This document shows, piece by piece, positions 6,238 to 10,118 of a stretch of 64,000 bases of DNA (position 1 is the first letter of the stretch; each line of letters begins with the position of its first letter). The notes under the pieces were generated by a model, which ran no database searches, was not told the DNA's origin, and saw nothing but the letters and a program-made list of their open reading frames with translations. Source of the stretch: Pedobacter indicus (GTDB lineage Bacteria > Bacteroidota > Bacteroidia > Sphingobacteriales > Sphingobacteriaceae); assembly GCF_003449035.1 (NCBI RefSeq), contig NZ_QRGB01000001.1, positions 186,001 to 250,000 of the forward strand, in the 5' to 3' direction. The position numbers and the translations under genes are program-made.

Positions 6238-7869
6238 GTGAAAAACAACTATCTACTAGCTTTACTAAGTGGCTTCTTGCTCTGGCTAGCCTGGCCACCA
6301 TTAAACTACACGACTCCGCTGTTATTTATTGCTTTTATTCCACTACTCTTCGCGTTGGAAGAGATTATGCGTGGCTCTTATCAAAAGAAGGGTAAAAAAA
6401 TATTTCTGACTGCGGGCATTACATGCCTTTTCTGGAACACAGCAAGTATCTATTGGGTGTTTAACGCCGTTAATGAAATCATGCCAACTGTAATTGCCGC
6501 ATTGATTTCCCTCATCCCTTTTGGCCTCGGGGCCATGCTCATGGCTATTGCGTTCCGCTTATATTATCAATTAAGAAAGAAATACAGCTACACCATCGCT
6601 GCGGCAGGGTTAATTTCTTTTTGGATTGCTTATGAGCTCCTGCATCAGAGCTGGGACCTTTCATTCCCGTGGATGAATTTAGGGAATGGTTTTGCGGGAT
6701 TCCATCAGCTAGTGCAATGGTATGAATATACGGGCGTGTATGGTGGCACTATATGGGTGTGGCTTAGCAATCTTATTCTCTTCCAAATTCTATATACCTA
6801 CCGGCTCAATAATAAGAGGAACAAAATTGCGCAAAAAGGCATTATTATGCCTCTCGTCTGGTTGGCTATTATTATTATCCCATCTGTATTGTCAATTACC
6901 CGGTATGTAGGCTACGAGGAACATACAAATCCGGCCGAAGTTGTTGTCGTTCAACCGAACGTCGAACCGTACAACAAATACACAACAATGACAGTTGAGG
7001 ATCAGATTAACAACCTTATCCGTTTGTCAGATTCTATAGCCCAACCTAACACAGAATTCTTTATCTGGCCCGAAACGGCCATTTCGGAATTGACCAACGA
7101 AGAAACAATACATACATCCCGAGTCTTTATCAGATTACAAGATTTCCTAAATCGTTACAAAAACGGCAACATCCTATCAGGCATCGAGAGTTACCTGATC
7201 TATGATTCAGCGAAAACAAGCTCGGCACGCCCGTTGGAAAACGGTATGTATTGGGATGCGTTCAATGCCGCCGTTTTATTAGAGAACACAGGCAAAGTTC
7301 AGTTTTATCACAAGTCGAAGTTAGTTCCTGGTGTTGAAAAAATGCCCTTCCGGGAATCTTTATCTTTTATGACTCCATTATTTTCAGCATTCGGAGGGGC
7401 AACAGGGGCTTATGGATCACAGGAAGAACCATCCGTTTTTTACGCTCAGAGCGGAATCGGGGCCGCCCCTGTCATCTGTTACGAATCGATTTGGGGTGAC
7501 TATGTCGGCGAATATATTCAGAAAGGGGCGCAATTTATCGCTATCGTTACTAATGATGGCTGGTGGGGCAATACCTCTGGTAAAGATCAACACGTAGTAT
7601 ATGCAAAGCTCCGAGCTATCGAAAACAGACGATGGGTAGCACGTTCAGCCAATACCGGCATTTCGGCATTTATTAACCAACGTGGAGACATTGTCCAACA
7701 TACCAATTGGTGGGAGCCTACCGCTTTAAAACAGGAAATCAACCTAAACGAAGAGCTTACATTCTATACCAAACATGGAGATTATCTTGCCTATATCGGT
7801 ATAGGAGCGAGTTTTATTTTTCTTGTTCTGATCCTTATCAAATTAAGAAAGACGCCTAGCCAAACTTAG
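6238..7869 (+). CDS. lnt: Apolipoprotein N-acyltransferase
   Basis: Inner-membrane enzyme that adds the third acyl chain to the N-terminal cysteine of lipoproteins. The 543-residue protein has about seven hydrophobic N-terminal segments, then a periplasmic nitrilase-like domain with the Glu-Lys-Cys triad: Glu279 in WPETA, a lysine in HKSKLVPG (residues 359-361) and Cys414 in VICYES. A final membrane segment closes the protein. Start is GTG at 6238, directly after the previous stop. The 3' end overlaps convergent nadE by 14 bp. Together with lspA the window holds two of the three classical lipoprotein-maturation steps. Confidence 0.95.
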   Translation: MKNNYLLALLSGFLLWLAWPPLNYTTPLLFIAFIPLLFALEEIMRGSYQKKGKKIFLTAGITCLFWNTASIYWVFNAVNEIMPTVIAALISLIPFGLGAMLMAIAFRLYYQLRKKYSYTIAAAGLISFWIAYELLHQSWDLSFPWMNLGNGFAGFHQLVQWYEYTGVYGGTIWVWLSNLILFQILYTYRLNNKRNKIAQKGIIMPLVWLAIIIIPSVLSITRYVGYEEHTNPAEVVVVQPNVEPYNKYTTMTVEDQINNLIRLSDSIAQPNTEFFIWPETAISELTNEETIHTSRVFIRLQDFLNRYKNGNILSGIESYLIYDSAKTSSARPLENGMYWDAFNAAVLLENTGKVQFYHKSKLVPGVEKMPFRESLSFMTPLFSAFGGATGAYGSQEEPSVFYAQSGIGAAPVICYESIWGDYVGEYIQKGAQFIAIVTNDGWWGNTSGKDQHVVYAKLRAIENRRWVARSANTGISAFINQRGDIVQHTNWWEPTALKQEINLNEELTFYTKHGDYLAYIGIGASFIFLVLILIKLRKTPSQT

Positions 7870-9454
7870 CTACCAACGGTAAGTTTAATCCGCTTCCGAA
7901 TGCGCGGGGCGATACCCGTAAGGCTGGAGGTGTCTGAAACAGCTTGAATCCGACGCGGCTCATCAAGCGAACGATCCTGTCAACTTCATCTTCGTCGTGT
8001 CCTAAAGCAACTATTTGAGAACGGGTAAGGTTTTTTTCAATTAATAGATATAAAATCGGATCCAATACGTCATATAAAGGCAAACTATCGCTATCTTTTT
8101 GTCCAGGTTTGAGCTCAGCGGAAGGAGGTTTACTAATTGCATGTTCAGGGATAAGCTCTCGGTCGCGATTAATGTAATGAGCTAGTTGAAAGACTTGGGT
8201 CTTGTAAACGTCTCCTAAAACGCTAAGCGACCCAATCAAATCGCCATATAAGGTTCCATACCCCATAGCGGCTTCGCTTTTGTTTGATGTATTTAAAACA
8301 ATGTAACCCTGCTTATTTGATATGGCCATCAAAATAACTGCGCGCACCCTCGCTTGTATATTCTGCTCAGTCAAGTCTACATCGGAATCATCTACATCCT
8401 GAAAAACGGGGTCTAACGTCGCCATAAAAGCATCAAATCCGCCCTTAATAGGGACGATTTCATATTCAAAGCCCAAATTATTAGCGAGGTCTTCGGCATC
8501 CTTTACAGAATGTCCGGTTGAGTACATAGAGGGCATCAGGATACCTTTAACGTTTTCCGGACCCAGAGCTTGGCATGCCAATGCGGCAACGATCGACGAA
8601 TCAATACCTCCTGACAGTCCGATTAGCGCCTTTTGCAAACCATTCTTTTGGAAATAGTCTTTTATTCCTAAGACCAAAGCCTCGTATATTAACTCGACTT
8701 CGGTAAAGTGACCTTCCCTGAGCGGTTGCAAAGATTTAATAGATTTTTCTTCCAGTCTAAAGAGTTTAAAATCTTCTTGAAAAGCATGGAGCTCATCTGC
8801 ATATTCTTCCTTAGAATGAACAATCAATGATCGCCCGTCAAATATTAACTGTCCTTGAGCGCCGATTTGATTGAGTTCAACAATGCCGACTCCTAACTGT
8901 TTAGATGTTTCTCTCAATCTTTCTTTCCGTTGTTCATGTTCAACGTATGAAAAAGGATAATTTTTTAACGAAATTATAAAATCAACTGCGTGACCATGCG
9001 GATTGTCTAACATATCCTCAAGAGTTAATAGAATCGTACTGCCTTTTACTTCGATGAGGTCCGCGCCGCTTCCTCGTGAGAAGTAAGGAGTTTCCATGAT
9101 CAAGCCCTGATCACGAAGTTTCTGTTTAGAAATTACCTTTTTAATCTCCCCTTTACTGATAAATAATGCTGCATTATAAAGGAGTCCTGAATCGTCTTCA
9201 CGATAGGGGGCGCCAATAATACAATCAATAGATGAACAAGCGTTCGCTATTTCGCCGATAGCTTCATCCACTTGGTCAAGGAATGTATCTGACTTCAGTA
9301 AATCCAGCGCTGGTGTTCCTCCAACAGCCAATTCCGAAAAGACAATCAGATCGGCACCCTGTGCATAGGCAATTTGGATGGATTCAATGATCTTCTTGGT
9401 GTTGACAACGAAATCCGCGATCTTAAAATTTAGCTGTGAAATAGCAAAGTTCAT
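7856..9454 (-). CDS. nadE: NAD+ synthetase, glutamine-type architecture with an altered glutaminase site
   Basis: Last step of NAD biosynthesis, amidating nicotinate adenine dinucleotide. The 532-residue protein starts at the ATG at 9454 (MNFAISQL); a longer in-frame reading would run into the preceding gene. Residues about 1-245 are a nitrilase-fold glutaminase domain, and the C-terminal half is the ATP-pyrophosphatase domain with SGGIDSS near residue 280. In the glutaminase domain the Glu (ELAVGG) and Lys (KQKL) are kept, but the nucleophile position, normally ICED, reads TLED with Leu145 (codon CTT). I infer it depends on ammonia or a partner. It lies 10 bp after the upstream barrel gene, so probably in one transcript. 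Confidence 0.93.
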   Translation of the reverse strand: MNFAISQLNFKIADFVVNTKKIIESIQIAYAQGADLIVFSELAVGGTPALDLLKSDTFLDQVDEAIGEIANACSSIDCIIGAPYREDDSGLLYNAALFISKGEIKKVISKQKLRDQGLIMETPYFSRGSGADLIEVKGSTILLTLEDMLDNPHGHAVDFIISLKNYPFSYVEHEQRKERLRETSKQLGVGIVELNQIGAQGQLIFDGRSLIVHSKEEYADELHAFQEDFKLFRLEEKSIKSLQPLREGHFTEVELIYEALVLGIKDYFQKNGLQKALIGLSGGIDSSIVAALACQALGPENVKGILMPSMYSTGHSVKDAEDLANNLGFEYEIVPIKGGFDAFMATLDPVFQDVDDSDVDLTEQNIQARVRAVILMAISNKQGYIVLNTSNKSEAAMGYGTLYGDLIGSLSVLGDVYKTQVFQLAHYINRDRELIPEHAISKPPSAELKPGQKDSDSLPLYDVLDPILYLLIEKNLTRSQIVALGHDEDEVDRIVRLMSRVGFKLFQTPPALRVSPRAFGSGLNLPLVAKFG

Positions 9455-9464
9455 ATGATGTATA

Positions 9465-10118
9465 TTAAAAGAAAATAGCAAAGTTAAAAGCCAGATAGGA
9501 ATCTTTAGGCTTTCCATAACCGTCATCCAGAATTTCCGTAAACCCATTATTGAATGTTAGCCCAGTTACCATACTTAATTTATGATCCAACTGCCATTCG
9601 ATACCCCCGCCAATTGCCAAACCTAGACGAAAAGTCTTAGCATCAAACTCTTCTCGTCCCATATCTTCAACCTCCTTATCACCTGCTATTTTCACTCCTC
9701 CCGTAAATCCGAATTGACCATAGTAACTTCGATAATAACGCTGTGTACTTTTTAATTTAACTCCGAATGGAACCTCTACATACTGCGTCTTATAGGTAGT
9801 CGACAATTGATCAGGACCAACGTCTACGGTCGATTTAATATTATTGATAAGAAAACCTGTAGCTAAGTAATAATTCTCCGAGAGACCAAAGTCAGCCAGT
9901 AGTCCATATCCATATCCAATCTCCCATTTTTTTTCTATATCAACCCCAGTTCCATATCGATGCCAACTCATATTCGGAGCAAAGGTAATCCCTAAACTTA
10001 CAGGCTTATAAGTATAGGTTGATCCATAATAATCTTGAGCATAGGACTCCCAATGGAAATTAACCAAAAAGAGAAAAACTAGAATAATTTTTGTCGAAAA
10101 TTTAAAATATGATTTCAT
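9465..10118 (-). CDS. PorT-like outer-membrane beta-barrel protein
   Basis: A 217-residue exported protein. A signal peptide of about 27 residues ends at SYAQ, and the mature part is made of alternating aromatic/hydrophobic strands (YYLATGFLI, YVEVPFGVKLK, FRLGLAIGGGIEW, LAFNFAIFF) ending in Phe, as expected for an eight-to-ten-strand outer-membrane barrel of the PorT / OMP_b-brl_2 type. The YVEVPFGVKLK strand is a recurring signature of this family. Substrate or role is unknown; it may be structural. It lies 10 bp upstream of nadE on the same strand. Confidence 0.85.
   Translation of the reverse strand: MKSYFKFSTKIILVFLFLVNFHWESYAQDYYGSTYTYKPVSLGITFAPNMSWHRYGTGVDIEKKWEIGYGYGLLADFGLSENYYLATGFLINNIKSTVDVGPDQLSTTYKTQYVEVPFGVKLKSTQRYYRSYYGQFGFTGGVKIAGDKEVEDMGREEFDAKTFRLGLAIGGGIEWQLDHKLSMVTGLTFNNGFTEILDDGYGKPKDSYLAFNFAIFF

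Follow-up and report, generated by a model that had tools for sequence, protein, structure and literature searches.

The 64,000-nucleotide stretch of Pedobacter indicus DNA that we analysed (the window) encodes a two-domain NAD synthetase, NadE, whose N-terminal nitrilase-like domain lacks the nucleophile cysteine of its glutaminase site. From the comparisons described below, we consider it probable that this is a native, vertically inherited NadE that has retained a dead glutaminase domain beside a functional synthetase domain dependent on ammonia.

The gene (nadE; 7856..9454, minus strand) was assigned by alignment with relatives and by its match to the NCBIfam NAD+ synthase model NF010588, which the whole protein reaches with 529.3 bits (cut-off 479). 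The reading frame runs from 9454 to 7856 and encodes 532 residues, with no internal stop. An alternative in-frame ATG at 9547 would give 563 residues and an overlap with the upstream gene, and the start was set at 9454 because the relatives align from there. The nitrilase-like domain (residues 1-228; 8771..9454, minus strand), which is probably catalytically dead, is recognised by PF00795 with 38.3 bits (cut-off 23.2), the match covering residues 4-137 alone; the NadE of a congener gives 73.9 bits with the same model, over nearly its full length. The NAD synthetase domain (residues 250-532; 7859..8707, minus strand) matches PF02540 with 237.8 bits, contains the SGGIDSS motif and is intact at 109 of 122 conserved columns, defined as at least 98% identical among 111 relatives. 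The three models thus bear out a sequence-only reading of this DNA, in which a two-domain, glutamine-type NadE with a nitrilase-fold N-terminus had been recognised, and the motif and the intact columns agree with its description of a normal-looking synthetase half.

Among the features of type F enzymes (NadE-Gln), the fusion of a nitrilase domain to the N-terminus of NAD synthetase is present, as are the Glu and Lys of the triad, while the Cys nucleophile and the YRE loop with its tunnel-entry Tyr and Phe are absent; the type N feature, a single domain without a glutaminase domain, is absent as well. The protein resembles the glutamine-dependent NAD synthetases (NF010588/PRK13981; PDB 4F4H and 5KHA) in its two domains, full-length homology and synthetase motifs, and differs from them in a Cys that was probably deleted and in the loss of most YRE-loop and glutamine-site residues. 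By descent it is a NadE-Gln, but one without the catalytic feature of the family, and judging from its sequence it should work like an ammonia-dependent NadE. Whole-length models would annotate it as an ordinary NAD+ synthase, given the NF010588 score above cut-off.

When the triad is mapped by motif from the residues given in an excerpt of PMC6946656, the counterpart of the glutamate is Glu41, in ELAVGG (9332..9334, minus strand), and that of the lysine is Lys110, in KQKL (9125..9127, minus strand); both can be read in the translation, as the sequence-only reading had stated. Further on the protein reads TLED, with Leu145 encoded by CTT (9020..9022, minus strand). We aligned it (MAFFT) with 111 full-length, distinct relatives, 80 of them from named records, after removal of identical rows and partial matches. 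The nucleophile Cys is present in 111/111 and the window row is gapped there: TILLTL-ED stands against TIALTICED in the relatives, and the one-residue gap, between Leu145 and Glu146, falls at the Cys column. The gap came to lie at the same column when 34 relatives, all from named records, were aligned separately. The residue pairing with Leu145 in the 111 relatives is Ile (104) or Val (7), just before the Cys. Since the Cys column is a gap and Leu145 stands opposite Ile or Val, the Cys codon was probably deleted rather than changed to Leu; the simplest path would be deletion of this codon followed by a change of Ile to Leu. The earlier proposal of a lost nucleophile, read from TLED and its CTT codon, is therefore confirmed by the alignment that it called for, whereas its placement of Leu145 at the nucleophile position gives way to a probable deletion.

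The segment that follows is also shortened. Counted from Glu-Asp to the following Pro-Phe/Tyr, its length is 23 residues in the window protein and 36 (109/111) or 37 (2/111) in the relatives, so that 13 further residues are gone after the nucleophile; a conserved Trp is lost from this region too (8984..9010, minus strand), as judged from the alignment and structure models. In the models of the window protein and of a control relative, made with the same set of sequences (mean pLDDT 75.6 and 76.8), two post-nucleophile helices of the control have no counterpart in the window protein, which lends modest support to their being missing. The best PDB matches of the window model are 4F4H and 5KHA (TM 0.73-0.74), with a whole-chain rmsd of 17.5-17.7 Å, and the domain placement in this model is therefore untrustworthy. 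Low model confidence at residues 116-122 and 501-532 was considered as a sign of decay and rejected, as the control relative is equally weak there.

The damage is concentrated in the glutaminase domain: the window protein departs from the relatives at 34 of the 77 conserved columns there and at 13 of the 122 of the synthetase domain (Fisher p 1e-7). When each row was left out in turn, the runner-up for the glutaminase domain had 5/77 changed columns and the median was 0; the median over all rows is likewise 0 for the synthetase domain. Within the glutaminase domain, 22 of 33 conserved columns are changed in the Lys/YRE and nucleophile segments, the limits of which were set after the alignment had been inspected, versus 12 of 44 elsewhere (p 0.001). 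The counterpart of the YRE loop (residues 116-121; 9092..9109, minus strand) reads QGLIME where the relatives have Y-D-x-F-D-E, the last Glu (Glu121) alone being kept, and the changes include Y116Q, F119I and, outside the loop, Y47T. With the M. tuberculosis and human NadE residues described in part of PMC6946656 transferred to the window protein by motif, the Tyr and Phe of the YRE loop, the Tyr of the constriction and the Trp of the gate all turn out to be lost. The C-terminal segment (residues 498-532; 7859..7963, minus strand) is present, with changes at 4 of its 17 conserved columns (E502G, R505L, K517R and R523L; p 0.08 versus the rest of the synthetase domain); the extended C-terminal segment of type F NadE is said to contact the glutaminase domain (PMC3376133, in an excerpt). 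In trees of 30 rows, the terminal branch of the window protein is 3.5 for the N-domain (median 0.32) and 1.56 for the C-domain (median 0.22).

The glutaminase domain of NadE normally frees ammonia from glutamine, and a nitrilase-type glutaminase needs a Cys nucleophile. In a domain where this Cys is absent, hydrolysis of glutamine is consequently very unlikely. The sequence gives good support for a loss of glutaminase chemistry, since the nucleophile is missing, the conserved residues of the YRE loop and nucleophile elbow are mostly changed and no relocated Cys is seen, and the earlier prediction that the domain could not hydrolyse glutamine holds on these grounds. We propose that the nitrilase-like domain lost its nucleophile, plus most of the residues of the glutamine pocket and of the coupling between domains, and would be unable to free ammonia from glutamine. 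Deamido-NAD would be activated with ATP by the synthetase domain, which would draw free ammonia from solution, and the dead domain would be retained as a structural part, as in carbamoyl-phosphate synthetase 1. The order of the losses, the ammonia dependence and the scaffold role are what we infer from these comparisons.

Carbamoyl-phosphate synthetase 1 is unrelated to the window NadE and has the same arrangement of an inactive, ancestral glutaminase-like domain on an ammonia-using synthetase; an excerpt of PMC4655335 gives Ser at the position of the catalytic Cys in the inactive domain of the human enzyme. Carbamoyl-phosphate synthetase 1 differs in requiring an allosteric activator. The window enzyme would share the use of free ammonia as nitrogen donor with the single-domain type N NadE, and differs from it in retaining the nitrilase-like domain and the C-terminal segment; its identity to two short NadEs from related genomes is 26 and 29%. 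Two-domain NadE also accepts free ammonia, with values for the human enzyme given in part of PMC6946656, and the fused NadEs characterised previously use glutamine in addition to ammonia, according to an excerpt of PMC3376133. Ammonia use is favoured, too, by five genomes of group g17 with a short NadE, in which no two-domain NadE was found. Other observations count against a dead domain on a working synthetase: evolution is fast in the synthetase domain as well (13 changed columns), which could mean that the enzyme is weakening as a whole, and Glu41, Lys110 and Glu121 remain in place, although a purely dead domain would not need them.

Ammonia could instead be fed to the window NadE in trans by a separate glutaminase or nitrilase, which we think unlikely. 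Such a division exists in Thermus thermophilus, whose NADS is encoded by two genes, for separate S and G subunits (PMC3376133, in an excerpt), and the window's genome contains five CN_hydrolase genes, including nadE and lnt. Two of the four others match NF010588 weakly, a 268-aa nitrilase with 40.6 bits and a protein in which a GNAT-type domain is fused to a nitrilase domain with 27.1 bits (cut-off 479), in both cases through the shared nitrilase part. Both fit other nitrilase models better, however, at scores below the respective cut-offs: for the 268-aa protein the best of these is an amidohydrolase model (233.6 bits, cut-off 249), and the fusion protein reaches 72.5 bits with its best other nitrilase model. 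Similar-sized ORFs of both also occur in relatives with intact NadE. The product of lnt (6238..7869, plus strand), the convergent neighbour on the far side of the nadE slot, is a clear equivalog (TIGR00546, 242.2 bits, cut-off 132.9), and the remaining candidate, a 340-aa nitrilase (L162, 6012-7034; C1 near 734350), has a signal-peptide-like start by eye, sits among catabolic-looking genes and gives no NF010588 match. The congener has four CN_hydrolase matches, none of the size of this 340-aa nitrilase.

The nitrilase-type search of the genome revealed no stand-alone NadE-type glutaminase subunit among the five genes, and the search for a second nadE that the sequence-only reading had suggested found none in this genome, which is 99.99% complete; one further gene that matches PF02540 was identified as guaA (778.5 bits, cut-off 400). 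Of the nitrogen sources considered in that reading, free ammonia with the domain as a structural leftover fits best.

Decay of the whole enzyme, in a cell that gets NAD another way, is similarly improbable. The acceleration of the synthetase domain, the changes in the C-terminal segment (4/17, p 0.08) and a nadE slot that is empty in the congener would fit such a process, but the frame is open and 109/122 synthetase columns are intact. The genome has nadA, pncB and amtB and no other nadE was found in it; because nadA and pncB are present, and a search of this genome for the NAPRTase family found pncB alone, both precursor routes seen in it end at NadE. There is even less to recommend the idea that the domain hydrolyses glutamine by means of another nucleophile or a relocated cysteine. 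The retention of Glu41, Lys110 and Glu121 would be in line with residual hydrolysis, but the Tyr and Phe of the YRE loop, the Tyr of the constriction and the Trp of the gate have no counterparts, and the sole cysteines of the N-domain recur in 106 (Cys73) and 105 (Cys78) of the 111 relatives. As these relatives also keep the catalytic Cys, neither is a relocated nucleophile, and a Cys acting as nucleophile elsewhere in the domain, which the sequence-only reading had named as a finding that would overturn it, is not seen. An assembly or sequencing artefact is scarcely credible, for although the exact letters of the gene rest on one genome, the reading frame survives the change, and an intact frame with 34 conserved columns altered is unlike read errors.

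The genomic position agrees with a native gene. The window nadE lies near ATP synthase genes, between lnt and an outer-membrane beta-barrel gene (PF13568; 9465..10118, minus strand), the conserved upstream neighbour that marks the slot. The corresponding slot holds nadE in groups g16 and g19, the Cys being present in the NadE of g19. In domain trees that leave out the NadE of L296 (g16) and L168 (g18), the window synthetase domain groups with g17, g19, g4 and Parapedobacter (support 100; trees overall 99-100). Given the shared slot and this placement, a horizontal origin is the weaker reading and was rejected, native and vertical inheritance of the window nadE being the best one.

The congener is close to the window's genome, with AtpA 93% identical and the two joined with support 99 in an AtpA tree (26 of 29 loci gave a row, 3 being left out). 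Its block (G001, C2; L295, 10850-10853) is kept and nadE is missing from it, so that the outer-membrane gene abuts lnt. The only nadE found in the congener (L164, 9224-10864) is on another contig, beside the ammonium transporter gene amtB and a probable glutamine synthetase gene. The encoded protein has its best match in g14, with 81% identity; among named records its best matches are from Pedobacter (76-79%), and with the window NadE it shares 46% identity. A grouping of the congener copy with g17/g4/g19, the window row being left out, was rejected (p-AU 0.013 and 0.017), for a group that was named after tree inspection. A clade of the window and congener NadEs was not rejected (p-AU 0.209), so this test alone leaves the foreignness of the congener copy unshown; the non-rejection may be explained by long branches. 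Gene order and best matches agree with a position of the congener copy outside g17/g4/g19.

The loss of the Cys appears to be rare. We scanned 301 family genomes for the motif T-x-C-E-D-x-W, counting matches per genome and without tying each one to nadE, and found it in 293. The eight genomes without a match are the window's genome, G039, G078 and five of group g17; the NadE of G039 reads SICEDLW, with the Cys kept, and G078 is 60% complete and has no nadE match. No second two-domain NadE without the Cys was found among the 301 family genomes, and the lack of another genome with the same loss counts against the explanation we prefer, a dead domain kept on an ammonia-dependent synthetase. Cys-Glu-Asp is present in 89/89 NadE loci read, comprising three family loci and 86 from a sample of 392 genomes of the phylum; the 86, which include eight of the same family and one genome twice, are the best-scoring matches listed and lean towards intact proteins. 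Searches of the open-access literature, judged by titles and abstract openings, brought up no naturally occurring two-domain NadE that lacks the Cys or has a dead glutaminase, and the kinds described in excerpts of PMC3376133, PMC6946656 and PMC7196632 are single-domain ammonia users and two-domain glutamine users.

The five g17 genomes without the motif (G052, G121, G162, G168 and G189) belong to a neighbouring genus, and each has one short NadE-sized ORF and weaker PP-loop matches; no two-domain NadE was found in them. In G052, the one of the five in which the context was examined, the short nadE (L301, 7567-8391) occupies the place of the two-domain nadE in related g17 genomes, with flanking genes that are 58-65% (upstream, other strand) and 63-64% (downstream) identical to theirs. 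The outer-membrane gene just before it is 42-49% identical to the gene beside nadE in g16, g19 and the window, and the g17 place does not adjoin lnt.

A wider interpretation, which we offer as a possibility that is more doubtful than likely, is that this part of the family has given up the use of glutamine for NAD synthesis at least twice, by different routes and to different stages: death of the domain within the native fused enzyme in the lineage of the window; loss of the native gene in the sister species, whose Pedobacter-type glutamine enzyme is encoded beside an ammonium transporter; and replacement of the fused enzyme in part of the neighbouring genus by a short one of the ammonia type. 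The dead domain may then serve as an ammonia entry path or as a regulator. An enzyme of this kind would be a natural separation-of-function case for the role of the nitrilase domain besides ammonia production, and it raises the questions of how the tunnel behaves without an ammonia source and why a cell abandons glutamine for an essential cofactor.

Two further g17 genomes, G131 (L122, 448-2262) and G201, have both a two-domain NadE and a second, short one, and in G131 the short NadE is adjoined by a 320-aa ORF that looks nicotinamidase-like by eye. PDB entry 3n05, a 590-residue NadE that aligns over both domains, is deposited as an NH(3)-dependent NAD(+) synthetase.
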